A DNA stretch of 64,000 nucleotides. Origin: Alitta virens. Lineage: Eukaryota; Annelida; Polychaeta; Phyllodocida; Nereididae. This document shows, in pieces, positions 19,671-64,000 of the stretch. The stretch lies in the NCBI GenBank assembly GCA_932294295.1, contig OW028584.1:8750407-8814406 (forward strand), given 5' to 3'. Under the pieces are notes generated by a model. It saw only the letters and a program-made list of their open reading frames with translations. It was not told where the DNA came from and ran no database searches. The translations under genes and the position numbers were made by a program. Positions within the stretch are counted from its first letter, which is position 1, and every line of letters starts with the position of its first letter.

Positions 19671-19847
19671 GTCCAGGAGTAACTCGCCGAGTTGTAGGAG
19701 TGACTCGCAGGGTTGTACGATAGACTCGCCGGGGTTCTTTTTTTTAGAAGAAGTAAAGCAAGGTAGCTACGACAGCGCCGGGAAAGTCGGCGAGTCACCC
19801 GTAGAACCCAGCGAGTCACTTGTCGAATGATATTTTGTACATGCAGC

Positions 19848-19955
19848 AGTGGAGGGGGGTTGTATATACTTTAAAAGACTGCTGCTCCCCTAATATTAGT
19901 CCGATTTTCGTCAAATAAAGCAGCCTTTTAAAGTATATACAACCCCCCTCCTTGC
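19848..19955. repeat. 108 bp palindrome inside the Harbinger right end
   Basis: The left arm starts GGAGGGGGGTTGTATATACTT, and the right arm is its reverse complement (AAGTATATACAACCCCCCTCC). The core contains CCCCTAATATTAGTCCGATT. The same core and arms recur, much enlarged, at 46.83 kb plus 50.52-51.49 kb. So this is a short version of an inverted-repeat element seen again in this window. Confidence 0.8.
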
Positions 19956-20137
19956 CTACGCTGATGCTGACGCTGGTAGTAGTCGGCGAGTCACCCGTGG
20001 AAGTCGGCGGATTACTCCTGGAAGCCGTCGAGTCACTCCTACTACCCGTCAGCTTACTCCTAGTAAACCGCTGGCTTTACTACGGGTAAAATTAGGGACG
20101 ACTAACTCGCCAACTTCGACGGGTAATCTGCCGACTT

Positions 20138-20407
20138 CTACGGGTTTATGATGGTTTTTGGACACCCGGGAGTTTGCCATGGGTATTCCTCCGGATTCTC
20201 CTCCGAATTATCCTCCTCTGACTCGTGCAAAAATTTGCTTAATTCTTCAAAAAGCCACTCTTTACGACAGTGTGGACATTTCAAAGCACCATAAATGATG
20301 AAATCGAAATTATTAATGTATGCTGAACAACATGAGTGGTGAATTATGGCTTTACAGCAGAACAATTGCTTACCACCATCTACCAAACATATTACACACA
20401 CATCCAT
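20138..20407 (-). CDS. small RING-finger protein
   Basis: An 89-residue ORF starts MDVCVICLVDGG. Its Cys/His spacing fits a RING-type zinc site: CVIC at residues 4-7, CC at 17-18, HH at 23-24, CC at 26-27, and CPHC at about 44-47 followed by RKEW. A Glu/Asp/Asn-rich tail follows. RING domains bind E2 enzymes and act in ubiquitin transfer, and viral RING proteins often redirect host proteins for degradation. Here the role is inferred from the domain alone. The ORF is intact. Its 3' end touches the Harbinger right-end array, so the C-terminal residues may be repeat-derived. Confidence 0.7.
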   Translation of the reverse strand: MDVCVICLVDGGKQLFCCKAIIHHSCCSAYINNFDFIIYGALKCPHCRKEWLFEELSKFLHESEEDNSEENPEEYPWQTPGCPKTIINP

Positions 20408-20409
20408 GT

Positions 20410-21170
20410 TAGTGATCTCTTTCCTGTAGTGGACTAATCACAACTGAAGTGAAATTTGAAAAAATTCCTTCAAAGCTAGTTTGCATAATTTAAAAAAATG
20501 CAGTGATGTGTGCATGTGTGCAATGGGATATGGATCAATAAATTTAACCAAAACCCTTTCATTTCCTAAAATATAGTCCTTGTGGGTGCATTACATTCAT
20601 TAAGTGCATTCAAAAAAATTGCTGAGGTGAGGAGATAGAGCTATTATCGTTTAAACAGCAAACTTTGAAAGAGTTTCTCAAACTTTCAGATTAAAAGTTT
20701 GATAGGCACCCAATGAGGTTATAAACCTATTAACCAACTTGTTTACTCCACATCACAGTTTGGTCTAGGTTTGGTATGCCTCCATAGCATAATTGACCTT
20801 ATCCCAGATTAGATGTAGGGCTGATAGGACTGACAGCTGTTTGGTGTCTGTAGGTTCAAACTCATTAAGGATTAAGGTATCTTGTCTTATCATTTCATAT
20901 CGGGTACAGTAAGCTCCAATCCCACCTAATCAACTTCTCCAGTTCCACCTACTGTGTAATCACTCCAATGATCAAGGATGTATTGATCCTAGAAGGAGGT
21001 CTTTGTTGTGTTCATTAATCAGAAGCATAATATGCTTTGATGTAGAGTTAATTTATCTTTATCACTATTAATTAGTGATATGACTGAAGAATTCACTGCT
21101 TCAGTCAACAACTCCTCAGTGACTCAATCCAAGTTCCACCCCATTCTCTAGTTTTCATTGGAGAGGAGCA
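20410..21170. other. intergenic, between divergent RING and membrane-protein genes
   Basis: There is no ORF of note. The region lies between the starts of two divergently transcribed genes, so promoters are expected. AT-rich stretches are present but no TATA box stands out. Confidence 0.5.
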
Positions 21171-21171
21171 C

Positions 21172-22622
21172 ATGATTTTTTTCACTATGTTTGGATTGAT
21201 TGAATTGTTATTGTTTTTTGGATCATTTGAGTTTGTGCAAACTCAGGTTTTGTGTTTGGAGGGAAATTACTGTATCTGTGAAGATGCAGTAATGAAGTGT
21301 GGCAATGTTGTGCCCTTTCTACCTCTGGAAGGAAGGACTGAGACTGTGTTGGTTGTGCACTTTAGTGATGAGCAAGATGGATATGGAGTTAAGACCTCTG
21401 ATTTAGAAGGCTATCTTCATGTTGAACTTTATGGTGTGTGTGGTATCTCTCGGTTGAGGAAGTGGAGCTATGGATGTAATGATGAATCCAGTGTGGATGA
21501 TACGGTTGTCATGGATGATGTGGATGATGTGGATGATGTGGATGAAGACAAGACGGATGATGAAGACCAGACGGATGATGAAATGTTTGATGTGGAGGTT
21601 GAAGGGTGGTTCAGCTTTTTCTCCGTGTCTTTGGCTGGCTTGTTGGGATTGAACGTAAGCGTTATGTGTGGTTTGCTAAAGACATGGAGAAGAATCAACC
21701 AGTTTAGAAGACAAGCCCCACCACCACCCTGTTCTGTTTCCATGATATTGGGGCTACAACGTTTCATACATGCAGTGATAATGTTCATGTGTCGTTGTGA
21801 AGCTTGTCAGAAAAGGGCACCCCCTTCTCTACAAAGTAAGTCTTTTTTAATTTAAATTGCAATTTTTATTGTACCATTAACCAAGCGTTTATGCGACTTA
21901 CTTCATATCACTACCCACGTGTTAATGTTTACATTATTAGATCTAAAAAAAAGCATCGCTTCGCGCATGCGCGATGCGGTATCTTGAAGCTTCTATTTTC
22001 CTCCGTATTAAAAAGGGTGGCGCTGCGTTAGGAGATCCTAAAAATGACGTCATACCATCAGGGAATAGCCTTGACGCTGCGCGCTACAACACATGCGCGA
22101 TATGCTATCTTGCATCTTCTATTATCCTCCGCAACGTAAAGAGTGGCGCTGCGCTAGGAGATCCTAAAAATGACGTCACCCGGGAGGGAATACCCTTGAC
22201 GCTGCGCGCTACAACGCATTTGCGCGATGCGGTATCTTGAAGCTTCTATTTTCCTCCACAACGTAAAGAGTGGCGCTGCGCTAGGAGATCCTAAAAATGA
22301 CGTCATACCAGCAGGGAATATCCCAGCGGGGAAGCCTCACATAATTGTAAAAGAGTAAATTAGTTTTAATAGTAGAACGTAGTGGGATATTAAGTTTATT
22401 ATTTTTTTTATTTCAGTTCCACACGGATTGAGACTACCCAGAACCCTTCAGGACTTGGTGGGTGCGCCATCCCCTTCACCTACGATGAGAGGCCCGATGA
22501 CAAGATCCAAGACAGCTGCTGCTGCTGCCGCTACCGCTGCCGCTGCCGCCACCGCTGCCGCTGCCGCTGCCGAGACGCCTCGTGGACGCCACCACGCGAG
22601 AGATGTAGAGAGCGGTCTTTAA
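21172..22622 (+). CDS. spliced type I membrane glycoprotein-like protein (2 exons: 21172-21835, 22417-22622)
   Basis: Exon 1 starts at an ATG and encodes a hydrophobic signal peptide (about residues 1-24), then a Cys-rich leader (CLEGNYCICEDAVMKC). A V/L-rich ectodomain, an Asp-rich run (VDDVDDVDEDKTDDEDQTDD), a transmembrane segment (FFSVSLAGLLGLNVSVMCGL) and a basic, Pro- and Cys-containing cytoplasmic part follow. The donor A|GTAAGT at 21,836 and acceptor TTTCAG at 22,411-22,416 join in frame (a phase-1 Ile codon). Exon 2 adds LRLPRTLQDLVGAP and an Ala-rich tail, for about 289 residues. AATAAA follows the stop by 11 bases. The layout matches the protein at 60,326-61,033. The leader pattern resembles an LRR N-cap, which is only suggestive. 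Role unknown; a virion or infected-cell surface protein is plausible. Confidence 0.75.
21964..22335 (+). repeat. three tandem 126 bp repeats with CRE and NRF1-like sites, inside the intron
   Basis: Three copies with a period of 126-127 bases each hold TGACGTCA (22,045, 22,171 and 22,298) and the words GGCGCTGCG and AGGAGATCCTAAAAATGACGT. A GCGCATGCGCG or related word sits at the start of each unit. TGACGTCA is the classic CREB/ATF site and GCGCATGCGC the NRF1 core. The intron placement and repeat structure resemble an enhancer. The 88-codon ORF over it is an artefact of the near-triplet period. Confidence 0.8.
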
Positions 22623-22632
22623 TGTATACTTA

Positions 22633-22638
22633 AATAAA
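22633..22638 (+). terminator. polyadenylation signal AATAAA
   Basis: A canonical hexamer lies 11 bases after the stop codon of the spliced membrane protein, followed by an AT- and GT-containing stretch. The very short 3' UTR is typical of compact viral genomes. Confidence 0.7.
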
Positions 22639-22639
22639 G

Positions 22640-23147
22640 ATATTAAATTGATATTATGCGTTTGTTATTCGTATGAAATATCTGAAAAATGCTCTGACAG
22701 TTTGTCATGAAAAAAATGTTGGTTACAGATGAACCATTAAACACTTTTCTCAAGTTCGTCCGGTACCGCGGGAAGGTCTCAGAGCTCGACTGGACATAAT
22801 TTTGAATACGGACAGTTGAAATCTGTCCCTTTTTTTAAATTTTTTTTTTTTTAAATATTTTTAAATTTTTTTTTTTTGGTGTGACTCGTTTTCTCTCCCT
22901 CTTTATGATGGGAATGGTTAAATCTAACCTGGATCGGATTTTTCCCTTCCACAGTGGGTGAATATGAAATGAAGCATATTGTACACAATTAAGCGACTCA
23001 GCCATTTATGAGTGGTGCTATCACACCGAAATGGCGGAGATTTAGATCCTTCAACCACCTCCTTATGAAAGGAAGTTGACACCGAGTCACATTTTTAATA
23101 CAAATCAAGCCAAATATATATATATATATATATTAGTAAACATTACT
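22640..23147. other. no supported gene
   Basis: This stretch contains a 28-codon ORF near 22,712, T-runs near 22,830-22,880 and a TA microsatellite near 23,118. I see no evidence that any of it is coding. Confidence 0.5.
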
Positions 23148-23272
23148 TCTAGCTACAAGCTGCTAGCTACAAGCTGCTAGCTACTAGCTGCTAACTACAA
23201 GCTGCTAACTACTAGCTGCTAACTACTAGCTAACTAGCTGCTAACTAGCTGCTAACTAGCTGCTAACTGCTG
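23148..23272. repeat. short-period minisatellite (CTAGCTACAAGCTG / TAACTAGCTGC)
   Basis: About ten degenerate units of 11-14 bases lie directly after the stop codon of the minus-strand ORF at 23,273. Units vary between CTACAAGCTG and TAACTAGCTG forms. Confidence 0.85.
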
Positions 23273-23605
23273 CTAGCCTATCCTTAAATACATCTGTTTC
23301 AAGAGTCTGTATTTATCAGACATTTGCATAATCCAAATAGAATTTGGATTAGTTTGAATAGTAGTGGAAGCATAATTTTGAATGTTACGCTCCAAAATAT
23401 TGAGTCTATGGGTTTGGATGAAATTATGACATTGGCAGAGATTGGTTTGGTGGCTATTGGATTCGGTATGACTTAATACCGAGTTCAGAATGCAAACAAA
23501 AAGATTCACAAGGATTTTTGGATTAGGTTTTGCCTCAAATAATTCTTCATTTAACAAAGCGATGTTCCAATCCAAATCATCACTCGTAGTACTCATAGTA
23601 CTCAT
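23273..23605 (-). CDS. unrecognised 110-residue protein overlapping the CARD gene
   Basis: The ORF starts MSTMSTTSDDLDW, and its ATG overlaps the TGA of the CARD ORF (ATGA, 23,602-23,605). That overlap suggests one transcript and reinitiation. The protein is helical-looking, rich in Leu, Asn and His, and contains one CxC pair. No transmembrane segment or known domain is seen. It is intact and ends at the edge of a minisatellite. Function unknown; linkage suggests it works with the CARD protein or is a C-terminal part reached by coupled translation. Confidence 0.55.
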   Translation of the reverse strand: MSTMSTTSDDLDWNIALLNEELFEAKPNPKILVNLFVCILNSVLSHTESNSHQTNLCQCHNFIQTHRLNILERNIQNYASTTIQTNPNSIWIMQMSDKYRLLKQMYLRIG

Positions 23606-23898
23606 ATTGACACTTTTGTGAATTCGTCTTCGAGATTGGTTAAGAGATTAGCTAGATCGGTTCTTTTTGTTTCCTTCAATGCATTAAGGAAGGATGCGAA
23701 TGCAGCGGGTCCTCGCATCTGTAGCAGAAATAAAAGTGAGTAATTTCGTTTCGATGGTGGTACTTCTAATATTTCAGTTACCATTTGCTGATTGAGAATT
23801 CCGTCTTGATAAAGAAATGAAAGCACTTCTGTACAAGGTACTTCTCTAACCAAAACTACAAAGTTCCTACGCAAAGCATCACGATCGCATCTGAGCAT
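23602..23898 (-). CDS. CARD-domain protein (death-fold)
   Basis: This 98-residue ORF is almost entirely one caspase recruitment domain. The pattern runs RDALRRNFVVLVREV (helix 1), EVLSFLYQDGILNQQMVTEIL (helices 2-3), SLLFLLQMRGPAAFASFLNAL (helices 4-5 with the signature RGPxAF) and KETKRTDLANLL (helix 6). The closest resemblance by eye is to CARDs of caspase-2 and CRADD type. CARDs pair with other CARDs to build caspase-activating platforms. A free-standing CARD can block such assembly, a known logic for CARD-only proteins. It sits in a virus-like gene cluster, so a role in steering host cell death is the natural inference. The ORF is intact with a clean ATG. Confidence 0.82.
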   Translation of the reverse strand: MLRCDRDALRRNFVVLVREVPCTEVLSFLYQDGILNQQMVTEILEVPPSKRNYSLLFLLQMRGPAAFASFLNALKETKRTDLANLLTNLEDEFTKVSI

Positions 23899-23934
23899 TT
23901 TGAGGAAATGTTTCGAACTAAAAATATTTTATTT

Positions 23935-24175
23935 AGATAGAGCGCGTGGGGGTCGCGCTTGAGCAGGTTTGGGCACGCGCTCGCGTGTGGTCACGCTTGA
24001 GCACGCTTAGGCACGCTTTTGGCTGCGCGCGCACGCTTGGACACGTGCGCGCCCGTGCGTCAAATGTGGACACTAAAATTCCTGCTAAATAATACCAAAA
24101 ATGAGTCTTTTCAACCGTGCGTCGAATGCGGGCACTAAAATTCCTGCTAAATAATACCAAAAATGAGTAATTGTC
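23935..24175. promoter_or_regulatory. GC-rich region between divergent genes, with a duplicated 60 bp unit
   Basis: Positions 23,935-24,060 form a local GC island with repeated GCACGCTT and GCGCGC words in otherwise AT-rich DNA. Next to it are two copies of a unit of about 60 bases (24,055-24,107 and 24,117-24,166) that both contain CACTAAAATTCCTGCTAAAT. The site is directly upstream of the CARD gene and 0.4 kb upstream of the plus-strand gene at 24,583, so a bidirectional promoter or origin-like element is plausible. Confidence 0.45.
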
Positions 24176-24582
24176 TTTTTCAACCGTATGTTCAACTCTG
24201 TATTCAACCATCCAGGTAAACCAACCATGCAGTAAACCAACCATAAATTGTTTTATGCTCCTCTTTAAAATCGTAGCTTCTGGGGATTTCCCCCTGATAG
24301 GGTTTCTGTTAACCCTCCTAGTCGTGGTTTCATTGCAATTTACTCTAAGTCAACTTTCGTAGCTTCTGAAATATATGGATGGAGTTTAATTGGGTGTGAA
24401 ACAATCGTGGTATCATTGCATTAAGATGAACTCGCGTATAGTTAACGTACTTTAAACAATAAACTTTGAAGTTGAGTAGTGTCACCTGGAAATGGAATAT
24501 AAGGTCCAGAATTTTTTCTAAATAGCATCACAATCTTCATAGACAGCAATACGCATTTACATAGCCACACTCTGAGATCAAG

Positions 24583-25343
24583 ATGAATTGTACTTGCAAC
24601 TGCCCAGGAAATGATGCTAAACTTTTATACTTGGTCTATACGATGCTTGCAGGGATCATGCTAATATTAAGCATTCAACTATTCGTAAGTGGAATTTAAA
24701 CAATAATTCACCTCTCTCTAGTTCTATGAATTTATATATAAATAGTTATGTTATAATGAATTAGTGGAATTTAACAGTGATATAAATTTATAGATAACTC
24801 GAATATCATTGCAGTAATTAATTTACGGTTTTATAATGATATTTTTTCCTAACTTTTAGGGTGCAGCCAGAACGAAGAAAATAGTCCACTTTTGTGCTGA
24901 GAGGTTGTCAGCGTTTACACGAAATGCGGAGACGGAAACGGAGCAGTAAGTTTATTTTCACAAGTATTCTGGTTAATTCTGATTACTTTTATAACTATCA
25001 CTCAATTATATAGAGAAATATCTCAAAAATAATCCTTTCCCTTTCCAGAAACCAGGACTTGGAAGTTGGTTCAGACGAGACTGTGAGAACCAATAACCCC
25101 ATATTCACAGTCCCAACCCTCCCAGTATCACCATCCTTCCCACATCAATGGAGTATCCCAACTCTTCTTACTCCCGCTCCTAGAACCCCGGCTCGCTCCC
25201 CATCGGCTCACTCCCCATCGGCTCACTCCCCATTGGCTCACTCCCCATCTCGACGCTCCTCTACCCCACCCTCTATTGCCTACGTCCACGCTACCCAGAC
25301 CCAATCGACTAGATCCAAACGTTATGCCGAATCGTCCTTATAA
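24583..25343 (+). CDS. spliced small membrane protein, 3 exons (24583-24684, 24860-24945, 25049-25343)
   Basis: Exon 1 encodes MNCTCNCPGNDAK and a single transmembrane segment (LLYLVYTMLAGIMLILSIQLF). It ends at C|GTAAGT in phase 0. Exon 2 begins after TTTTAG and ends CA|GTAAGT in phase 2. Exon 3 begins after TTTCCAG and stays open for 98 codons. All three frames agree, which is strong support for the model, giving about 160 residues. The C-terminal tail is Pro/Ser-rich with four SPSAH-type repeats (25,193-25,250). A TATA-like word (GAATATAAGG) lies about 85 bases upstream of the ATG. Predicted as a membrane-anchored protein with a disordered tail; function unknown. Introns of 175 and 103 bases are short, like others in this module. 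Confidence 0.65.
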
Positions 25344-25411
25344 ATATTGTTAATTTTTTTATTTGTATTGTGATAATTGTGGTTTTTTATTATTTTTATA
25401 ATACATTTTTT

Positions 25412-27990
25412 TTACCTGAAATACTTCGTTCGTATCGGTTCTAATATTATATCTAAGGGTTTGGTTGAGACACCATCAGCTAATACTTCCCTTTTAGGAT
25501 AAAAATAAGCGAATCCGGCTCTATTCTGTTGGTATGTGAAAATAGTATTACTTTAACTGATAAATCCTACATTGGTAGAGCTACGGCTTTCCTTAGTTTC
25601 CAAAACGCTTTTAAATATTTCTAGAGGGTTTTTGACTCTGTTTTTGGATATACCTTTAGAACTAAACTTACAATGGTCTTTGTTGGCTACGATATAGGTT
25701 TTAGAACAGAGTCCATAGAATATCTCAACTTCGTATTCACGTTTAAATAACCCAGGGCAACGATTGTCATATTTAGTGTGTTCTGGGCAACAAGTTCTTG
25801 GAAACCAATGAGTTTCAGCATCAACGTCTCTAACTGAACAATATCCATTTAACTTATGCTTATATTCATCTAAGAGTTCTGGTTTAATCACATCTTGCAA
25901 TGTTTCCCCTGCTATTGAAAAGTAATTGCTATCGGTATCCATCTGAAGCATTTGAAACTTATCTCTCGGAACGTATTTACAGAGAAAATCGTAATAGAAT
26001 TCTAACATTCTTAACTTGGCATTTTGCAGAATGAAAAAACCTATTTGAATTGGTAAATCTAACTTAATCTTGTTTTTTTGAGATTCGATTTCATAAAATT
26101 CGTAATCATCAGAAAGTTGGGTCATGGATTTGAATCCTTTCTCGTTAGCTTTGAGGCAAGCCTCATTCTCACCTTCTACATATCTAACATCGTCTGCTTC
26201 AGTTTATTAAGGATAGTTGATCCATAGGCAGAATTTCCTATAAGTTTTGATAAGTCAGCAATTATTGAGAGATCAGGATCTCTATCTCCTGCTCTCCTGG
26301 CCTCTGTCACATTGCTAACAAATTCCTGAAAGCACTTCATTCTGTTATATTCTATGACTTGGTGAATTTTGGATACAACTAAACCGTGCTCTAAATACCA
26401 TTTCAACAAAGGTGTAGCAAATAGCATTTTCCTAGCTTTCATTCCTCCTACCAACAGTCTTCTAGGTTTTGTACTCACTCCTGATTCTCGAGCAAAGTTT
26501 TGCATATGCTCACCAATTGCTTCAAATGGTATGTCTGTTGTGCAAAATATTGGTGCCATCTCACTAAAATAATCGTATGGTGTCAAGTTATCCTGTTGTT
26601 TGAACCCTGGTTCCCATTCTTCAGGGACTGCAATGTATACTGCTACCATACCGAATAGTTCATCCCGTTTCACTGCTTCTAAAATTTCCTTTTCTGTCAG
26701 AGTTTTCTTATGTTTTTTGAAAAACTTTGGTCTCTTGTTTTCGATGAATTGTTGTAAGTCAGGAGTATCTTTAATCATTTTCAGAAATTCGCACTCCCAT
26801 ATCTCTTAAAGTTTGTATCCTAGACTCCTGTAGTAGTTATTCCTATCCTGTCTAATTTTCTGAGTGAGTAACCCTTTCTTCTTTTCTTTCTCAGATACAT
26901 TTTTATTCATTAGTGGACAATGTCCTCTGTGGTGGTGGAAATAGCAACCATCGTACTGATATATTTTTGTCATATTATTTGAACAAGATACTCCATCAGC
27001 AAAGAAACGACCATCTCTCTTTTCCTTATTTCCATTTCGTTTATGCCAAATCTTTAGATTTCTTTTATGACTTAAATAATCCATCCAATAGAACATGTTA
27101 TCATATCTATCCCTCACCACAGGTTTAAATTCATCTTTCGCGTGTCTTCTAATGAATGAACCCACTGGAAATTCTTTACTGAAGGCATATAGATATAACG
27201 CATTAGCGTCATACCCTATTATTTTCTTCACCCGATTATTACCACACCGAATAAATGTCTTATCTCGCTGAGCTTGTCTGTGGAAAATAATAGAAGCTCC
27301 TCCAATTATATTCTGTAAATAGGAGAAGTAAATATCCGAATTTTTTTGGTCAATCAGAGAGAAATAGGCACCATTTTTCTCTGCACTCTGAAAAACTAAC
27401 TGTCTTGCTATTCCTGGAACACTAATGGAGCTTTTGAAAATATCTATTTGCTTAACCTTATAAAAGTCCTGCAGCTTCATAACTGCTTTAACGAATGGTG
27501 CGACATCTAAATTATTATACCATATAAGAAAATCTTTAAAACAACTCATATTTTCGCTCATCCAAACTGTTTTCAACCATTCGTAATTTTCAAATGTCTC
27601 CAGGACATTACATTGCTTTAGATTAGAGTAGAATACTTCGTATGAAGGTAATTCTGGATAATCTAACTTGGAGGGATCATCAAAAAATTTGTATGGAAAA
27701 TATCCTTTCTGTTCTTGAATTTTAAAAGCTTTTAAAAAGCTAGAATAACTCGTTCCAGGTGCCAGGTAATTGATGATATCTAAGAATTTAAACCTCTCAT
27801 TTGCTAGACAGGAGTATGAATTGTTTTTCTTCACAACAAACTTATGTTCTATGTTATGCATCTCTAAACAACGAGCTATTTCCCTTTTGATTAAATTCAT
27901 ATCATATTTTGCTGAATTAAATCCTAAAACTGGAATCAGGGTGCAATAATGTTCAAATGTTTCAATCATGTTTTGAATTTTTTTGCGCAT
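25412..27990 (-). pseudogene. protein-primed family B DNA polymerase, broken, N-terminus missing
   Basis: Motifs occur in the family order. The Exo II-like FNSAKYD is near 27,920-27,900 and the Exo III-like YNNLDV near 27,520. Pol A DANALYLYA is near 27,210-27,184, Pol B KLIGNSAYGS near 26,215-26,245 and Pol C DTDS near 25,935. A C-terminal FTYQQNRAGFAYFYP block also belongs to this family. Such polymerases replicate Polintons and adintoviruses from a terminal protein primer. Breaks seen are an in-frame TAA at 26,806-26,808, a frameshift near 26,190, and an in-frame TAA at 25,553-25,555. The Exo I region is absent because the 22 bp repeat array begins at about 27,993. Reading remains clear between breaks, so decay is fairly recent. 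Confidence 0.88.
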
Positions 27991-27992
27991 TA

Positions 27993-28411
27993 TACAAAGC
28001 TCCGCTGCGAAGTCTACATAGCTCCGCTGCAAAGTCTACAAAGCGCCGCTGCGAAGTCTACAAAGCTCCGCTGCGAAGTCTACATAGCTCCGCTGCAAAG
28101 TTTACAAAGCGCTGCTGCGAAGTCTACAAAGCTCCGCTGCAAAGTCTACAAAGCTCCGCTGCGAAGTCTACAAAGCTCCGCTGTGAAGTCTACATAGCTC
28201 CGCTGCAAAGTCTACATAGCTCCGCTGCAAAGTCTACAAAGCTCCGCTGCGAAGTCTACTAAGCTCCGCTGCGAAGTCTACAAAGCTCCGCTGCAAAGTC
28301 TACAAAGCTCCGCTGCGAAGTCTACATAGCTCCGCTGCGAAGTCTACAAAGCTCCCCTGCGAAGTCTACAAAGCTCCGCTGCGAAGTCTACAAAGCTCCG
28401 CTGCGAAGTCT
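27993..28411 (+). repeat. 22 bp tandem array, about 19 units
   Basis: The unit is CAAAGCTCCGCTGCGAAGTCTA with few variants (CTGCAAAG and TACATAGC forms). Units abut without unique spacers, so this is not a CRISPR-like array. ORFs across it are repeat artefacts. The first codons of the neighbouring polymerase ORF track run into it. Confidence 0.95.
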
Positions 28412-29610
28412 ACACAGTACGGTGGCCCATATCTTTAATTTAGACAGTCAGTCAGGGATAGATATATTTTATAGACATTTTACGTAACAAGAATTAGTGT
28501 TAATTGTTGACCATGAAGGATTTAAGGATCTTGGTGTAATAAAAAACTGAGTTGAAAACAAGTGTGAATCAATGTCAATAAAAGCCATATATTAAATCCT
28601 TCAGTAGATAGGAGATAAGATAAAGGAAGGATAAGATATAGGATAGATAGATAGATAAAGGATAGATAGATAGATATGAAATTTATAAAAACACCCATTT
28701 AATATTTATTTAAACTGTTATAAAAGAAACACATTTAGAGGAAAGGTCTAAATATAAAAAACATAAGAAGACAATACAGTCATCAATATAAACAAATGTT
28801 TAAAATGGATTATTCAATTATACTACAGATCTGAGGCTCTTTTATTGCAAATTGCACTTGACTATAGATATTGATGACACCTTACAACAAAGCATTAAAA
28901 GTAAATGGCAATTAACCGATAGCAGCAGAGTTGTTTTGACTTCGCAGCAGAGCTGATTTGACTTCGCAGCGGAGCTGATTTGACTTCGCAGCGGAGCTGT
29001 TTTGACTTCGCAGCAACTTCGCAGCAGACTCAATTGCATCAAGAATTCCTGTTGCGTCGAAATTGTACTTATGGGCCACGGTAGTCTGTCTACTTATGTT
29101 TCATATTTAAAAAAAAGACTTCAAAGCAGAACTTAAATTGTCAACTCATCAGTTTTTATATTTAGACCTTTCCGCTTAATGTTTTTCTTTTATAACAGTT
29201 TAAATAAATATTAAATGGGTGTTTTTAAAAATTTATCTATCCTTTATCTATCTATCTATCCTTTATCTTATCCTTCCTTTATCTTATCTTATCTCCTATC
29301 AACTGAAGGATTTAATTCACACTTGTTTTCAACTCAGTTTTTTATTACACCAAGATCCTTAAATCCTTCATTGTCAATTAACACTAATTCTTGTTACGTA
29401 AAATGTCTGTAAAATCGATCTATCCCTGACTGACTGTCTAAATTAAAGATATGGGCCACCGCAGTGGTGTAGACTTCACGGCGGAGCTGTGTAGAATTCG
29501 CAGCGGTGTAGACTTAGCAGCGGAGCTGTGTAGAATTCATTCCGCAGCGTCGAAATTTCCTAGTGGCATCTAGAAACCCTGTTGCGTCAAAATTGTACTT
29601 ATGGGCCACG
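27993..29610. mobile_element. foldback-type element with long inverted repeats
   Basis: Arms of about 350 bases (28,414-28,780 and 29,150-29,465) are reverse complements with moderate divergence; for example GGTGGCCCATATC at 28,423 pairs with GATATGGGCCACC at 29,448. Arrays of a 22 bp unit lie in opposite orientations on the left (27,993-28,411), in the middle (28,925-29,030) and on the right (29,463-29,540). A direct repeat around TTGTACTTATGGGCCACGGTA occurs at 29,063 and 29,592. It lies where the polymerase N-terminus should be, so it most likely inserted into the polymerase gene. No target duplication was identified. Confidence 0.7.
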
Positions 29611-38432: not shown

Positions 38433-39169
38433 TCACATCCTCCCGATGAGGAGGCATGTCCTCATGCCTTTGGACGAGCGATGGAGACCTTTAGTGCACC
38501 AAATACCTGGAGTTAATACAACTTTAACCTTAAAAATCTAACAGTATGGAGGACATCTGACTGGCGATCAGGAACACATAATAAACAAACAGTCAAATTA
38601 CAATGACAAAAACAATCCATGAACATTGACAACCCAAGGCAAACACGGTGTTCACACTGAACAAAGTAAAGTTCCATTTTAAAAGTTTCTGTAACATTGA
38701 CCCCGTGACCTGGGCCAGCTGTCCTTGACCAATGTTGCAGATTGGGGGCTATTTGGGTTTTCATCATGTGTTCCGGGGAGGAGACTGGGGAGGCCCCAGG
38801 TTCAGCCAGCTGGAGAACCTAGTTCAGGGGGCCTCTCCCCTTGCACAACTCCTCCCAGAGGCGGACTCGCTCCGTGGTCAGCCTCTGGACCTCCTGGGAA
38901 GGGCATCCACCTGGCACTTTGCTCCAGCCCTTACGTCTGCCGGCTCCACAAACGGGGTTGCTGATGCCCCAATCTCTTACGCAATGTTTTCACTTAACAA
39001 CTTCACATTACAAAGAACCAAAGTTATTTAACAACCACATGTTTCCAGCAATAAAAATTGCCTGTCCCAATAGTTTAACACAACTATTATCCTCGGGGCG
39101 AGTGAACAAGCACCTACAAAATGATCTAAGGTCACTGGTAGCATCATTTTTAAGTCACACAAATAGGTA

Positions 39170-40117
39170 CCAGTCACCTGGGGAAGGGGGAAAGGCTTGG
39201 GCTCATCTGCTTGCACCATGGCCACAGCCCCTCGGGGCCCCATGTCGGGCATGTGGGGCTTGGCAGCTTGGTAAGCAGATTCATACTGAGTGGCTAGGTC
39301 AATGGCATCCTGAAGTGTGGCTGGTTTATGGGCCCCCAACCAAAACCTCAGATCTGTGGACCCAGAGGTATCCATGAACCTCTCTTTTGCAAATCTCTCT
39401 TGTTCCTCCCCAGTGGACACAGGATTGGCCTTACGGGACAGTTCTAACAGGTACAATCCATAGGACTCCAAATCCATGTCCGGGCCCCTTTTAGCATTAA
39501 ACCACTTATTTCTATAAGCATCTAGGGCCCTAGTGGAACAGAACAGAGACCTTAATTGGTCTACCATCCGGCTCCACGATTTTTCGTAGGACAAGGACAC
39601 AATTATCAAACAGGCTGGACCATCTATGCTGGTCCACATATGAAAGCAACGTTCCTCATCAGTCCACCCATTAAAGTCAGCCACCCTCCCAAACTCCAGC
39701 AAATAATCAGTAAAAGCAACTCCCTGACCATCATACGAAGGAGGAAGGGCCTCTCGACGTCTCCTATGCCTTCTGGGATGGGCACGAGCTTGCCCCTGTT
39801 GGCTCTCTCCCAATTCTAGTCCTATATTCAGGGGAGGATGGGGGAGTGGACGCTGAGGAGTCATCAGATGACTCCTTATCAGAAAAATCTAAAACTCTTC
39901 TTTCACTGCTAGCCCGGGGCCTAACCTGGGACTTCGTTTTCTTACCAGGGCCCTTGTTATGGGAGGGCCCTGGCAGAGGTGAGTCCCTATTATGGTCAGC
40001 CCCTATATCAGGTACTCTGTGAGTGGCTTCCCGAGCCACCATGCTGGCTGACTGGGAGCTACGTGGGGTGTCAGTCAGCTGGGCAGCCACGAGGCTGTCA
40101 ACTGGCTGATGCAACAC
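39170..40117 (-). pseudogene. gag: gag polyprotein remnant, frameshifted
   Basis: Two frames cover one protein. The N-terminal part (from about 40,117) includes SSDDSSASTPPSSPEYRTR. After a frameshift near 39,800, the capsid-like part reads YLLEFGRVADFNGW, WSRMVDQLRSLF and LDAYRNKWF, ending PLPQVTG at about 39,170. There the sequence leaps to 3' non-coding sequence: a deletion junction. The same protein at 48,873-50,009 is in a single frame. Gag proteins form the retrotransposon particle. Confidence 0.85.
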
Positions 40118-46570: not shown

Positions 46571-46838
46571 CCCCTCTCACATAGCCGGTTTTGCCGTAGT
46601 GAAGCCGTAGTATGACGTAACGGTTATGCAACAGCTTTTTTCGACGGGTTGGCGACGCATTCTGGCGGCAAAAAGGGTTCTCGGGTCACTCGGCGGGTTC
46701 TACGGGTCACTCGGAGGGTTCTACGGTAAGCCGACGGGTAGTAGGAGTAACTCGACGGCTTCCAGGAGTAATTCGCTGAGTTCTAGGAGTAACTCGCCGA
46801 CTGCTACCAGCGTCAGCATCAGCGTAGGGGTTGTATAT

Positions 46839-48703: not shown

Positions 48704-48913
48704 TCACTTTCCAGAGGCTGGGGACTCAATTTCGTAATTGACCTCCCCTATCCTACGCACCACCCTATAAGGACCCCAAAAATATGTCATCCTTCTCATC
48801 CCTATTGCCCTCTGAGGTCCCAGTGTCAAGGGACTCATCAGAAGTGGGAAAAAGGTGTGGTCACAGCAACGATCATTGCTGTACTCCATCCCCACCTCGG
48901 CCTGCCAAGACAT
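48704..48913 (-). pseudogene. integrase C-terminal remnant of the LTR element
   Basis: The frame contains MRRMTYFWGPYRVVRRIGEVNY, which has the GPY/F-type motif found after the integrase core in gypsy-like elements. It directly follows and partly overlaps the end of gag, so protease, reverse transcriptase, RNase H and the integrase core have been deleted between them. Confidence 0.65.
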
Positions 48914-50009
48914 CCTGCATAAGGGAATAGAAAATTTCTCTCACCTGGGCTTCGGTGACTGGGGCCCCAGATGGGGGTCCAGTCACCTGGGGAAGGGGGA
49001 ATGGCTTGGGCTCATCTGCTTGCACCATGGCCACAGCCCATGGGGGCCTAATGTCGGGCTTATAGGGCTTGGCAGCTTGGTAAGCAGATTCATACTGAGT
49101 GGCCAGGTCAATCGCATCCTGAAGTGTGGCTGGTTTAAGGACCCCCAACCAAAACCTCAGATCTGTGGACCCAGAGGTATCCATGAACCTCTCTTTTGCA
49201 AACCTCTCTTGTTCCTCCCCAGTGGACACAGGATTGGCCTTACGAGACAGGTCTAACAGGAACAGGCCATATGACTCCAAATCCATATCTGGGCCCCTCC
49301 TAGCATTCAACCACTTATTTCTATAAGCATCAAGGGCCCTAGTGGAACAGAACAGGGACCTTAATTGGTCTACCATCCGGCTCCACGATTTTTCGTAGGG
49401 CAAGGACACCATTTTCAAACGGGCTGGACCATCTATGCTGGTCCACATATGAAAGCAACGTTCCTCATCAGTCCACCCATTAAAGTCAGCCACCCTCCCA
49501 AACTCCAACATATAATCAGGAAAAGCAACTCCCTGACCATCATACAAAGGAGGAAGGGCCTCTCGACGTCTCCTACGTCTTCTGGGGTGGGCACGAGCAC
49601 TTGGGGCAGCATTGCCAGCCATTACAGCTCCAGCAGCTCCGCTTGCACCTATTGGCTCTCTCCCAATTCTAGTCCTATATTCAGGGGAGGATGGGGGAGT
49701 GGATGCTGAGGAGTCATCAGATGACTCCTTGTCAGTTAAATCTAACACTCTTCGTTCACTACTAGCCCGGGGCCTAACCTGGGACTTCGTTTTCTTACCA
49801 GGGCCCTTGTTATGGAAAGGCCCTGGCAGAGGTGAGTCCCTATTACGGTCAGCCCCATTATCAGATATTCTGGGAGTGGCCTCCCCAGCCACCATCCTGC
49901 TTGACTGGGAGCCACGTGGGGTGTCAGTCAGCTGGCCAGCCATGAGGCTGTCAACCGGCTGATGCAACACCCTATTAGGCCTGGGTCTTAAACTCGAAGT
50001 ACCTGGCAT
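48873..50009 (-). CDS. gag: gag polyprotein, intact frame
   Basis: The ATG at 50,009 (MPGTSSLRPRPNR) opens about 378 codons. It has a disordered Ser/Pro/Arg-rich N-terminal half (SSDDSSASTPPSS, then an RRRRRR run) and a retrotransposon gag-type capsid domain (YMLEFGRVADFNGW, KSWSRMVDQLRSLF, LDAYRNKWL, ATLQDAIDLATQYESAY). It ends in a short helical tail with no CCHC knuckle. It would self-assemble into particles. With pol gone, the element would need enzymes in trans. The downstream stop at 48,873 is probably created by the deletion. Confidence 0.85.
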   Translation of the reverse strand: MPGTSSLRPRPNRVLHQPVDSLMAGQLTDTPRGSQSSRMVAGEATPRISDNGADRNRDSPLPGPFHNKGPGKKTKSQVRPRASSERRVLDLTDKESSDDSSASTPPSSPEYRTRIGREPIGASGAAGAVMAGNAAPSARAHPRRRRRRREALPPLYDGQGVAFPDYMLEFGRVADFNGWTDEERCFHMWTSIDGPARLKMVSLPYEKSWSRMVDQLRSLFCSTRALDAYRNKWLNARRGPDMDLESYGLFLLDLSRKANPVSTGEEQERFAKERFMDTSGSTDLRFWLGVLKPATLQDAIDLATQYESAYQAAKPYKPDIRPPWAVAMVQADEPKPFPLPQVTGPPSGAPVTEAQVREIFYSLMQDVLAGRGGDGVQQ

Positions 50010-50276
50010 CTTTTCAAACCAGACAAATTTCAAACAAGACAAACAAGAAATTGTCAAAAAGATCAACAATGTGACTGGGCAACAACTAACACCAAAGAAA
50101 GTGAAACCACTTATCGGCCTCCACTGCAGTGAGTAATGCAGGAGGAATTCCTATGTGCCAAAGTCAGTGTCAAAGATAATCCTTATGTCAAAGATAATCC
50201 TTTCTCAATGCGAGGTTAATCCTTGTAGCACAGAAGCTCTCCTTGGAATAAGTCAAGTCCCATATCGGGCGCCAAT

Positions 50277-51490: not shown

Positions 51491-52053
51491 ACCCTTCTCC
51501 CTGCCTACGCTGGTAGCAGTCGGCGAGTTACTCCTACAACTCGGCGGGTTACTCCTGGAAGCCGTCAAGTTACTCCTACTACTCGTCGAAGTACTCGTAC
51601 TAGCCCTGAACAAGCCGTCGTGTTCACTACGCCTAAAATTAGCGACGGGAAACCAGTCCAAGTCGGCGAGTGACTCGACGGCCTCCAGGAGTGACTCGAC
51701 GAGTTCGAGGGGTAATCCGATGGGTTAGGCAGGTTTATTGTTTACTTTTGCACACATTGAGTTTCCGGCTACCAGGCCCGAGAATCCCGGTTTGGGCCCG
51801 AGTCCCAGGAGAGACTCGACGAGTATTTTGAAACGTTGCTGTACTCTTATCAATGGCAATGAAATGGTTGCTTGGAGACCATAAACAATTATTTTCTTTG
51901 TTGAATTAACCAATTGGTGGATGTCATGATACTTTTTATGACTAGTATGAATGCTCTGAAATAAAACGAACTGAATTCCATGGTAATCATCAATCTATTC
52001 ATTGCATATGTGGAGTTAACTAACTTTCTTTTCTATTCCAAACAGGTGCAGAT

Positions 52054-53346
52054 ATGGCGACTGGTAACAACGACAAGAATTCCTCACCACCAAGCTTGAA
52101 GTGCAACACAGTCAGCTGCTTTCTTCCGTACAAGGCCTTGTTGGCAGTTGGACTCCTGTTCCTCATCCACTTTTCAGTTTATATTCATTTTAATGGCTGT
52201 GGAGTGGTGTTGAACTATTTCCCCAAATATAAAGCGACTAAAAATACTTCACAAATAAGCATCTTCAATGATGCATCAATCGAATGGACAAATGGGATGA
52301 CGGATCATACGGATTCATTCAATACTACAACCAATGTTCCTGCACTGACAGAGTCAAAGAAAAAGGATAAAATCATATTCTACTGGAATAGTTACTTTGA
52401 TGTCGCAGACTGGGGAGCGGGGTTTGGACACAAACCTTTTGAATCTTGTGAAATAAAAAATTGTATCGCAACAAATGATCGGCAGAAATACAAGTATAGC
52501 GATGCCATGTTATGTCACATGCGATCTGGTGGTTGTGGTATAAAAGAATTACCAGAGTACAGAAATCCAAACCAGTACTGGATATACTTTCTCATGGAAT
52601 CTCCCTTAAACTCAGCGAGTGATGGGAGCTTGACCCCCTATAATGGAATTTTCAATCTGACACTCACTTACAAGCAGACCTCAAACATAACCCATTCATA
52701 CAGTGAAAAAAATAAAGTCTTAAGAGAACTCAAAGATAATTCCTACAAATTTTATAAAGGGAAAATGACCAGTGTTGCATGGATAGCAAGTAATTGTTGG
52801 TCTTCAAGTGCCATTCAAGGAAGAATGACTTATTTATCGAAACTGAGCAAGCATATCCATGTGAAACGTTATGGCAGATGCCCAGGACATACTAGGTGCG
52901 GTAACACTTGCCATGTAGATGCTGCCAAGACACACAAATTTTACTTTGCAGCTGAAAATTCGATTTGCAAAGACTATGTTACAGAAAAACCATGGAGAGC
53001 AATAGAAGTTGGAATGATCCCCATCGTGTATGGTTACGGAAATTACTCACAAGTTCTTCCTCCAAATTCTTACATCAACGTTCAGAACTTTACATCTCCT
53101 CGCTTATTAGCAGACTATTTGAAAAAAGTTGCAGGAAACGAGACACTATACAATGAATACTTTGATTGGAAAAAGACTTATGTTAAATCAGAGCCAAGAA
53201 AATCACATTATTGCAAACTCTGTGCATTCCTCAACCAGGAAAACCCGCCCAAAAGTATAATTTATAATTTGGATAAATTCTGGTCAAAAGCAAATGATTG
53301 TGTCAATCCTCACACATTTCACGAGTCAGTTATTAAAGAACCATAG
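52054..53346 (+). CDS. alpha-(1,3)-fucosyltransferase, GT10 family
   Basis: A 430-residue intact ORF. It has a short cytosolic start, a signal-anchor (about residues 28-48, KALLAVGLLFLIHFSVYIHF) and a Ser/Thr-rich stem, followed by a GT10 catalytic domain to the end. The family signature FYFAAENSICKDYVTEKPW is at residues of about 300-320, followed by GMIPIVYG. Several Asn-X-Ser/Thr sites and paired Cys residues are present. Enzymes of this family move fucose from GDP-fucose onto N-acetylglucosamine or related sugars in the Golgi. A splice acceptor (TTCCAAACAG) ends 9 bases before the ATG, so an upstream non-coding exon exists. The coding part is one exon. AATAAA lies at 53,934. It is the only clearly intact host enzyme gene here. 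Confidence 0.93.
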   Translation: MATGNNDKNSSPPSLKCNTVSCFLPYKALLAVGLLFLIHFSVYIHFNGCGVVLNYFPKYKATKNTSQISIFNDASIEWTNGMTDHTDSFNTTTNVPALTESKKKDKIIFYWNSYFDVADWGAGFGHKPFESCEIKNCIATNDRQKYKYSDAMLCHMRSGGCGIKELPEYRNPNQYWIYFLMESPLNSASDGSLTPYNGIFNLTLTYKQTSNITHSYSEKNKVLRELKDNSYKFYKGKMTSVAWIASNCWSSSAIQGRMTYLSKLSKHIHVKRYGRCPGHTRCGNTCHVDAAKTHKFYFAAENSICKDYVTEKPWRAIEVGMIPIVYGYGNYSQVLPPNSYINVQNFTSPRLLADYLKKVAGNETLYNEYFDWKKTYVKSEPRKSHYCKLCAFLNQENPPKSIIYNLDKFWSKANDCVNPHTFHESVIKEP

Positions 53347-60325: not shown

Positions 60326-61033
60326 CTAAACAGTGAACGCAGTTGAAGGAGGGGTGTCTCCTCTTTCCAGCGTATGTAGATTGCCCCAAGTACAATTACA
60401 GCATTTTGCAGCCAGATGAGCAGGGAGGAGCATTATTGCCATACATTTCAAGCAGCAATCAATTGCGCACATTGCTGGATCGTCGGCCCTGGCGTGACTA
60501 TTGATGCGGGCATGTAAGTTCACAAGACTCACCAGAATGGCGCATGTTACAACTCCTCCCAAAATGCTGCTCACTGTCGTCCACATGATCATCCCTGTGC
60601 CATAACTCCTTAAAGCCTTTCTGGATGCAAAGAGAGGTTCATGCGCTTCATGTGAATGGTCGTAATCCATCTCGACTGTGGTCTTTATCAATGAAGTCAC
60701 TGTCACTCCAGCTACATCGGATGACAAACACTGAGCCCAGGGAAAGGTTGAAGTAATTTCCAGGCAGAGTTCACCTGAAAGGCCAATAACTATAACTCTA
60801 GCGAATCCGATTGTGCGTTTGAGACTCGCTACGTCAAAGTTCTCCATTCCAGGTCTTATCGTCAGTACTTTGCCGGTCCTGTGTTCAGAAGCAAAGAATG
60901 GAGCAGCGGCCACCTCTTTACAAAGTACGGCCCCCGAAAAGCCACAACTGCACTGTCCCTCATTTCCGCAGGACCAAGCCGCAGCATGACTCAGGCTAAT
61001 CACTAGCAACAAAAAGGCAGCAATTCAATCCAT
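60326..61033 (-). pseudogene. type I membrane protein, relative in layout of the protein at 21,172
   Basis: The ATG at 61,033 is followed by a TGA at codon 3 (61,025-61,027). The same frame then continues open through a signal peptide (AAFLLLVISLSHAAAW), a Cys leader with spacing C-x5-C-x-C-x7-C, and a V/I/L-rich ectodomain. A transmembrane segment (SSILGGVVTCAILVSLVNL) and a Cys-rich tail complete it. The layout and the Cys leader match the spliced protein at 21,172-22,622. The stop at codon 3 makes this copy likely non-functional unless a downstream non-ATG start is used. About 235 codons in all. Role unknown; perhaps a surface protein of the virion or infected cell. Confidence 0.65.
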
Positions 61034-62242: not shown

Positions 62243-62737
62243 TCAAATAAATTTACCCTCGCCATACAGCATTAAACAGTGACTTTTAACATCTGTTATT
62301 TCCTTAAATATTTTTAAAAGACAAGAGGGTTCATATTGTCTGCTTCTATAGTAAGCATAGGTCAGTGCATAGAAACCGCAGTGAGTAGAAGCTAAATAGC
62401 CCGAACAAGTAATGTGACTTTTAAATTTTAACATAAAAGCAGTTATTTCTTCATTGTAGGTTCGCTCGCCCAGTGAATCGAATACTTCTAAAAGACTCGA
62501 ATCTTCGCTCTTCCACTTCAACTTCAACTTCACCCTCGAATCAGCATGAATGGGCAGGATCATCCAGTGGCCCACCTCGCCGCGTAAGTACGAGTTTTCA
62601 TTACAATTAACGATGTAACAGCGCTCACGGCCGTCAGCTTTAACATAGCTCAGGGCTCTCGAGGGTATGATTGCCATGACGTACGAAGAGGCTGTCTTGT
62701 CATTCCAAAGTATCTCATATAGCTCGTTTGTGTTCAT
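62243..62737 (-). CDS. adenain/Ulp1-like cysteine protease
   Basis: A 164-residue ORF whose ATG overlaps the TGA of the capsid gene (ATGA, 62,734-62,737). Catalytic-type motifs appear in family order: GHWMILP with His57, EVFDSLG with Asp87, and STHCGFYAL with Cys120. Polintons and adenoviruses use such proteases to mature capsid precursors. The Gln that usually sits about seven residues before the Cys is not evident (YLASTHC); the equivalent position holds Gly or Tyr. The ORF is otherwise intact. Length is short but typical for this family. Confidence 0.75.
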   Translation of the reverse strand: MNTNELYEILWNDKTASSYVMAIIPSRALSYVKADGRERCYIVNCNENSYLRGEVGHWMILPIHADSRVKLKLKWKSEDSSLLEVFDSLGERTYNEEITAFMLKFKSHITCSGYLASTHCGFYALTYAYYRSRQYEPSCLLKIFKEITDVKSHCLMLYGEGKFI

Positions 62738-64000
62738 GTCAAATAGAGGTTACGTGCGTAATCGAATGAGAATAGACCTGGATATGTCACTTTTGTGAGC
62801 ATAACAGCTGACTCTGCCAGTGGTGACTTGAATCTCAACTCTATTCTCACACAGCCCTCTCGAGTCACGGGGTAGAATTCTGAGTGATTTTGGGGTGCCA
62901 AGTCAATCACAAACAATGTTTACCCGTCTTTGTATTCCTCACGAGTTATTCGTCCCTGACTGGAGCAATTCTGTTTCCCCTTGTAGAGGTCTGAGTAACA
63001 ATGTAGATACTTATCTGCTGAAAAGTCAACACTCAGAGGCCCCCCTGGTGTAGGAGTACCTGACAGACTCACGTTAATGAAAGTGATGTCGTAGTGTCGA
63101 AAGTTGTAGGGGTTCTTGACTAGGCTGCCACTCATTGATTCCCCTGACACAAAGCCTATGACAATTTTACTCGGCACTCGTCCATTGAATGCGTCCTCTA
63201 TGTAATATGATGATGTATCGCATGACAGATTGAATTTTCTGAGCTCTTCTTTAGTGTAGAAGTATTTGGCCAGTGAAATCTCTTTCACCAGGACATCTTG
63301 GTGACCTAGTAGAATGAGACTCGTGGGGGTCATGTGTTTCAGAATTAAAGTAATATCCACAATTTCCAGCTTGTAATCAGTTGAATCGGAGTTAGAGCTT
63401 AGCAGTCTGAACCTATTGGAAGTTGGTGTGAGAGTGATGTCAATAGTGACACCGTTTAGGAAGTATTTGTTGACTTTGAATACATCAACATCCACTTTGG
63501 CCAGAAGCTCAACAGTGTGGCTCCCACTCATTGCCTCGGCTCTCTTTTTAAGACCCTCGTTGCACCCAATCATAAGGCTGACGTCGTCCATGAAGCCAGC
63601 AGAGTCCTTATGAAACATTGCGCATTCTAGTTCAGAGTCATTAAGTTCCGTTTCGCCTAATAGAGTGTTCATTAGGCCTTGTAGCTGTAGCCAGTTTGTC
63701 CACCTGTCACAATACGGTCATTGAGGCGTACTTCCACCTGATCCCATAGACCTTGAGCCAGGTTATTAACAGGTCCAACACTCCATACCCCCTCATCTTC
63801 AGGAACACTCTCCGCCCCTGCAGCAGCAGCAGTAGCAGCAGCAGCCGCAGCAGCAGCATCTGACTCAGTTCCTCGCTCTGGCACTAGCGAGCCGTCACCC
63901 CTGACAATTCGCACTCTCGTAGCTAGGTATACATTTAATAGGTCAATGTAAGAAGTACCTACACCCGGTACATGGAACTTTGCTTCACTCTCAGTTGAAA
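62734..64000 (-). pseudogene. Polinton/adintovirus-like major capsid protein (F54H12.2-like), broken and cut by the window edge
   Basis: The frame is open from the window edge: FHVPGVGTSYIDLLNVYLATR, then an Ala-rich run (63,812-63,860), GPVNNLAQGLWDQVEVRLND, and a long central part. YNFRHYDITFINVSLSG follows, then a C-terminal VIDLAP segment and the end at 62,734. Order and motifs match double-jelly-roll major capsid proteins that form hexons of icosahedral shells. Breaks are a frameshift near 63,672 (after GYSYKA) and an in-frame TAA at about 62,920. About 420 residues are visible, so little of the N-terminus is missing. The gene overlaps the protease by ATGA. Confidence 0.85.

Follow-up and report, generated by a model that had tools for sequence, protein, structure and literature searches.

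Little is known of the infectious cycle of Polintons, a group of endogenous viruses. Polinton/Maverick elements and adintoviruses combine a type-B DNA polymerase (PolB), an rve integrase with a chromodomain, an adenovirus-type protease, a packaging-type ATPase and a capsid-like protein with inverted repeats of about 100 bp, and the same set, its ATPase and capsid-like protein as candidates, is found in a group of elements that we describe here from the polychaete Alitta virens, which differ in carrying a gene for a CARD protein. Our starting point is a window of 64,000 nucleotides (contig OW028584.1 of assembly GCA_932294295.1, positions 8,750,407 to 8,814,406), which sits on the 36.8-Mb contig C12 of the genome searched (671 Mb, 23 contigs). 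In this window, an earlier note made from the sequence alone had proposed a virus-like replication module with a CARD protein and a RING protein next to its own polymerase. The segment concerned, at 20.14-27.99 kb, is a truncated Polinton copy, an internal fragment of about 7.8 kb. We regard it as nearly certain that its CARD is Polinton cargo, and probable that the locus is best explained overall as a Polinton/adintovirus-like fragment with a CARD-only decoy. A literature search over titles and the starts of abstracts found no report of a CARD in a Polinton, an absence left unproven by the founding adintovirus paper, which lay outside the search; a word search of PMC11071308 returned no 'card'.

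Free-standing CARDs are known from other settings. The part of PMC4457926 covered here describes the CARD protein of grouper iridovirus (GIV-CARD, 91 amino acids (aa)), which acts against apoptosis in HeLa cells, reduces the activity of caspase-8 and -9 and is similar to human ICEBERG; the same part presents ICEBERG, INCA and COP as CARD-only decoys of caspase-1. The Polinton protein shares with the ranavirus CARD-only proteins the form of a short free-standing viral CARD of about 90-98 aa, and with ICEBERG, INCA and COP the lack of anything attached to the CARD. It differs in that its best matches are RAIDD, Dronc and caspase-9, while GIV-CARD is described as ICEBERG-like, and in that it resides on mobile elements (at least 150 matches) and is nearer to the CARDs of RAIDD and initiator caspases than to the caspase-1 type. 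Ranaviruses differ from Polintons in virus realm and in replication module. A further parallel is offered by the Burro retroelements of planarians, which carry BIR, BCL2-like and RING motifs (PMC6431247) and are likewise large elements with apoptosis and RING-type domains; unlike the present elements they are Gypsy-like retrotransposons with the domains in a polyprotein, and the part of that source covered mentions no CARD.

The CARD gene occupies positions 23602-23898 of the window on the minus strand and encodes 98 aa with its own start and stop and the RGPxAF string. Pfam recognises the CARD at 37.9 bits against a cut-off of 23.9, with 37.9-44.0 bits for the proteins tested from the four element families defined below, and the AlphaFold2 model has six helices, with a mean predicted local distance difference test score (pLDDT) of 87.6 and a predicted template-modelling score (pTM) of 0.75. 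When this model was used in a fold search, the first 20 rows were taken by CARDs (CARMA1, caspase-9, Apaf-1, NLRC4) or designed proteins, with TM-scores by query of 0.56-0.74 and no E-value below 0.001; ICEBERG appeared at rank 33. Among Protein Data Bank (PDB) sequences, the single protein matched RAIDD best (2.8e-6), the cIAP CARD being among the weak matches, and a profile of six relatives retrieved RAIDD (1e-9), Dronc, caspase-9, CED-3, a designed protein and Apaf-1. A CARD fold is thus supported by the Pfam score above cut-off, by the predicted six-helix structure and by the fold search. As a family the CARD is free-standing, because all 13 database relatives are only 73-155 aa long (two of them carry the source name 'caspase 2'). 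Searched with the polymerase piece and with the CARD and PolB alignments, the IMG/VR viral contigs yielded no relative.

The association of this gene with the element emerges from its distribution in the host genome. The CARD search gave at least 150 scored matches (a Bcl-2 search made for contrast gave 8 only); all counts below are among the matches listed, and linkage means a match within 20 kb of a CARD or polymerase locus. The listed CARD matches include 73 copies of family 1, to which the window copy belongs, with 6 further family-1 fragments, 27 copies of family 2 (62-65% identical to the window CARD), 25 of family 3 (57-60%) and 19 of family 4 (50-53%). The window PolB piece has a match near every family-1 copy (73/73) and every family-2 copy (27/27), near 5 of the 6 fragments and 18 of the 19 family-4 copies, and near none of the 25 family-3 copies; overall, a PolB match lies within 20 kb of 123 of the 150 CARD matches, always upstream and on the same strand. 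Of the 150 polymerase matches listed, 21 are without a listed CARD within 20 kb. The window RING, which as a query gave 108 genome matches, is found near 67 of the 73 family-1 copies, 5 of the 6 fragments, 20 of the 27 family-2 copies, none of the 25 in family 3 and 7 of the 19 in family 4, or within 20 kb of 99 of the 150, all downstream and on the same strand, when about 0.006 matches per CARD copy would be expected by chance within 20 kb on either side. At 20 of the 25 family-3 copies, a RING-like protein of family 3 used as query found a same-strand match 4.9-7.0 kb downstream, and the two RING queries together place a RING within 20 kb downstream, on the same strand, at 119 of the 150. 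The claim that a virus-like element carries CARD and RING beside its own polymerase is therefore strongly supported by genome-wide co-location, and the free-standing CARD with its RGPxAF signature was borne out as well. Neither of the two ways in which the earlier note could have failed came about: structure prediction supports the CARD fold, and the candidate reading of CARD and RING as host genes was rejected by their co-location with the polymerase, with which both travel through the genome.

CARD and RING are nonetheless not an obligatory pair, because RING-like genes also occur near polymerases without a listed CARD nearby and because one family-2 group has a CARD without a RING match. 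A RING match is missing at 7 of the 27 family-2 copies, those at loci L043 and L044 included, and 6 of these 7 belong to one closely similar group in which the CARD is kept beside PolB and the protease lies next to the CARD. Matches to the family-3 RING-like protein (25-35% identity) were found within 20 kb of 44 of 72 other polymerase loci taken from a listing of PF03175 matches, and no listed CARD match (among the 150) falls within that distance of any of the 72. This makes the RING the accessory of wider distribution, and the CARD is linked more tightly to PolB than to the RING; judged by these matches, the RING seems to be a common accessory of Polintons in the Alitta virens genome. The RING-like genes lie 8.8-14.4 kb from these 44 polymerases of the PF03175 type.

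The window RING-like gene (20138-20407, minus strand) is an open reading frame (ORF) of 89 aa. It scores 12.0 bits with Pfam zf-RING_2 and the family-4 gene at the same place 20.1 bits, both below the cut-off of 27.3. Four aligned proteins share an invariant Cys/His pattern, and its position is likewise conserved. A model with a mean pLDDT of 70.6 had mainly RING and U-box ligases among its highest fold-search matches, a weak likeness with a best match probability of 0.95 at E 0.02 and no E-value below 0.001. The protein probably serves as an E3-type accessory with other host proteins as its targets.

The polymerase gene of the window (25412-28035, minus strand) comprises a carboxy-terminal part that is open in four pieces only (28035-26806, 26805-26176, 26203-25553 and 25552-25412) and is therefore broken; a repeat element starts at 27993, and beyond it the amino-terminal part of the gene is absent. 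The piece with NKLIGNSAYGS reaches 19.2 bits with DNA_pol_B_2, below the cut-off of 25.8. The open PolB proteins of families 1, 2 and 4 carry the motifs DANALY, NSAYG and DTDS and align to PF03175-detected polymerases with an hhalign probability of 97.8%, and by these three motifs and this alignment the protein is identified as a type-B DNA polymerase. Pfam gave no PF03175 match for the relatives of families 1, 2 and 4, and the PolB profile gave no match among PDB sequences.

The anatomy of the elements was followed in 13 neighbourhoods (L039-L051) and five further pieces (L052-L056). PolB and CARD are neighbours with a shared strand, PolB upstream, in all 10 neighbourhoods of families 1, 2 and 4, with a small three-exon gene between the two on the opposite strand in family 1. 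A few kb beyond the CARD, and ahead of the genes for the protease and the capsid-like protein, comes a RING gene in families 1 and 4 and in the majority of family-2 copies. Beyond the RING, another family-1 copy (L054) has a protease, a capsid-like protein, a 147-aa protein, an integrase with chromodomain, an ATPase and a protein in the place of PC4; family 4 (L055) shows the same order, with its own RING between the membrane gene and the protease. Family 2 is mixed: the membrane gene is present in one of three neighbourhoods (L045) and has no match in L043 and L044, and in L043 a Peptidase_C5 protease (27.3 bits) and a capsid-like protein stand about 1.75 kb past the CARD. In family 3, the CARD is near one end of the shared unit and is followed by a membrane protein, the RING-like gene, which has no Pfam RING match above cut-off, PC4, an ATPase, a capsid-like protein and an integrase with chromodomain; the polymerase, seen in another copy (L056), is of the other, canonical type.

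Pieces of other copies contain the rve integrase, at 36.3, 58.3 and 42.9 bits in families 1, 3 and 4 respectively (cut-off 32.6), and the chromodomain exceeds its Pfam cut-off in families 1 and 3. For Peptidase_C5 (cut-off 21.3), family 1 reaches 24.4 bits beside the 27.3 of family 2, and family 4 is just under at 20.0; PC4 of family 3 is above cut-off at 39.9 bits. The candidate A32-like packaging ATPase, a protein conserved between families, scores 18.5 bits with Pox_A32 in family 1, below the cut-off of 22.8, and a Pfam Pox_A32 search of family 3 gave no match. The capsid-like protein, conserved at 440-480 aa beside the protease, was not identified by Pfam or by PDB sequence or profile search; the names capsid (a double jelly-roll major capsid protein) and penton in these elements are presumptive. 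Inverted repeats of 101 bp (94%) in family 1 and 107 bp (88-93%) in family 4 were found at opposite ends in pieces of different copies, and none were found between the family-3 pieces compared.

The CARD appears to be constrained and to have a history separate from that of its elements. The ratio of nonsynonymous to synonymous substitution rates (dN/dS) is 0.147-0.271 in 20 of 24 between-family pairs, ratios that are rough because dS is high, and silent sites are saturated in the other 4; four within-family pairs gave 0.07, 0.33, 0.81 and one identical pair. Families 1 and 4 are similarly related in capsid-like protein (58% identity), integrase (55%), ATPase (63%) and CARD (53%). Families 1 and 3 are only remotely alike in the first three (24%, 30% and 37%), but their CARDs are 59% identical, and across the comparisons of family 3 with the other families the capsid-like protein is only 24-29% and the CARD 56-59% identical. 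The family-3 CARD therefore did not diverge with its element; by these identities, the CARD either passed from one Polinton lineage to another or was captured repeatedly from one source. Exchange is favoured over separate capture because the highest identity of five host CARD pieces, out of about two dozen host-like sites, to any CARD from an element or metagenome was 37% in alignments longer than 50 aa. A CARD tree including the host pieces is poorly resolved (1 of 17 inner branches starred), and locus L057, one of six considered as host pieces, was rejected as a family-3-like copy. The best-scoring host CARD (62 bits) seems to lie in a 372-aa host open frame at G000:C1:36760227-36761201(-) together with a Bcl-2 domain (80 bits), which would make this frame a Bcl-2/CARD fusion.

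On the strength of the CARD fold and the grouper iridovirus precedent, we lean towards reading the CARD protein as an anti-death decoy. It would be made while the element replicates or transposes, and by ordinary CARD-CARD contacts it would attach to the CARD of an Apaf-1-, CRADD-, caspase-9- or Dronc-type host adaptor or initiator caspase; the bound CARD would block assembly of the host caspase-activating platform, and the cell would stay alive. The RING protein would act separately as an E3-type accessory and the membrane proteins at cell membranes, and no joint action of the three need be assumed. Several points weigh against this reading. The decoy role is proposed from fold and precedent, and a CARD on its own can be an activator too, through nucleation of filaments. 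The host comparison covers five CARD pieces, the RING scores below the Pfam cut-off in every protein tested, and one within-family CARD pair has the dN/dS of 0.81, on 4 changes. The idea that the window CARD is better conserved than its surroundings was dropped, its identity to one family-1 copy being 98.3% against 97.2% in the adjoining non-coding stretch, and the window copy alone therefore shows no selection.

An activating CARD, which would nucleate filaments or recruit an initiator caspase and so bring about timed host death for particle release or suicide against an invader, would fit with the best sequence matches being adaptor and caspase-prodomain CARDs (RAIDD, Dronc, caspase-9) able to recruit caspases. 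We consider it unlikely, since no protease or oligomerisation domain is attached, as the lengths of the 13 database relatives illustrate, since the tested viral CARD-only protein described in the covered part of PMC4457926 blocks death, and since an element copied in the germ line would presumably gain little by killing its cell. We think still less of the proposal that CARD and RING form a split counterpart of cIAP, in which the CARD would bring host CARD proteins to the RING for ubiquitination: cIAP has both domains in one chain, its CARD is among the weak sequence matches, and in most copies of each of the four families the two genes share a strand at a distance of some 3.4-5.6 kb, but RING-like genes also accompany 44 of the 72 other Polinton polymerases without a listed CARD, and the group of 6 among the 7 family-2 copies without a RING match has retained its CARD. 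That the two are ordinary host genes beside the element, or a chance pick-up without function, is extremely improbable, even though host genomes are rich in CARD and RING genes and about two dozen host-like CARD sites were found, because the polymerase is linked to 123 of the 150 CARD matches listed with side and strand fixed, open frames are retained across families differing at 34-47% of residues, and between-family dN/dS is well below 1.

A constrained CARD in four families, common to distant lineages, suggests that the elements meet and evade a host death response. More tentatively, and as a possibility to which we give rather less than even weight, the free-standing CARD may be a traded counter-defence gene of animal Polintons that has crossed at least once between lineages with only remotely alike polymerases and capsid-like proteins. 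If so, the host would turn a CARD-caspase death pathway on endogenous DNA viruses in those cells in which they replicate, and the CARD, the separately inherited RING and the membrane proteins would constitute a host-manipulation island kept beside PolB. The 98-aa CARD is a small testable protein for asking which CARD pathway the host uses against DNA viruses.

Within the window fragment, the genes are ordered as RING-like (minus strand), a two-exon membrane gene (plus), a 110-aa ORF (minus), CARD (minus), a three-exon membrane gene (plus) and the carboxy-terminal part of PolB (minus). The predicted two-exon gene (21172-22622, exons at about 21172-21835 and 22417-22622) encodes a membrane or secreted protein with no match in a Pfam search, and its intron contains a 127-bp tandem repeat; the predicted three-exon gene (24583-25343, exons at about 24583-24684, 24860-24945 and 25049-25343) encodes a small membrane protein. 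The 110-aa ORF (23273-23605) has counterparts in family-1 and family-2 neighbourhoods. Its start overlaps the CARD stop in the string ATGA (23602-23605), as in the examined family-1 and family-4 sequences (family 4: L050:6292-6295) and not in family 2, an arrangement that hints at coupled translation of the CARD and the next ORF. Aligned with one family-1 copy, the window reaches 98.3% identity in the CARD, 97.9% in the 110-aa ORF and 97.2% upstream of the CARD; the figure falls to 93.6% for the PolB part, 88.5-90.8% across the exons of the membrane genes and 86.5% for the RING. Such uneven identities suggest a mosaic.

The polymerase gene is cut off by a fold-back element at 27993-29540 (right end approximate) that was apparently inserted into it and has inverted arms 60-95 bp long as well as 22-bp tandem repeats, and at the RING end the likeness to other family-1 copies stops at about 20.2 kb, the break point of the element. 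Searches of the window with the family-1 integrase, ATPase and PC4-place protein found no relative, and the family-1 protease gave a 33-residue match at 16.1 kb (E 0.008) and nothing more. Because the polymerase is broken and its amino-terminal part is missing along with relatives of the integrase, the ATPase and the PC4-place protein, the window copy is a truncated, broken fragment and not a working module. What the earlier note had called a module thus recurs as a gene set in other copies, but is here a relic whose CARD and RING need not go together. Its two spliced membrane genes are supported by consistent GT-AG junctions readable in the sequence. The polymerase that it assigned to the element is recognisable by type-B motifs in open relatives, but the window copy is in four pieces and lacks the amino-terminal part; its RING protein has the Cys/His pattern and a weak RING/U-box fold likeness, but scores below the Pfam cut-off.

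Capsid-like matches at 62.7-63.95 kb of the window belong to another element. A second Polinton-like fragment lies at 58-64 kb, with ORFs at 62243-62749, 62920-63998 and 60326-61024, all on the minus strand; its capsid-like frames are 26-27% identical to those of families 1, 3 and 4, one ORF resembles the family-1 protease (29% over 75 aa), and a membrane protein resembles by eye that at 21.2 kb. Similar 21-bp tandem repeats occur at 19675-20040, 46674-46802 and 51520-51600. Two similar gag-like open frames without a Pfam match, at 39028-39888 and 48873-50150 on the minus strand, probably represent one retroelement family. A single-exon fucosyltransferase gene at 52024-53346 on the plus strand (Glyco_transf_10, 175 bits) is probably a host gene.

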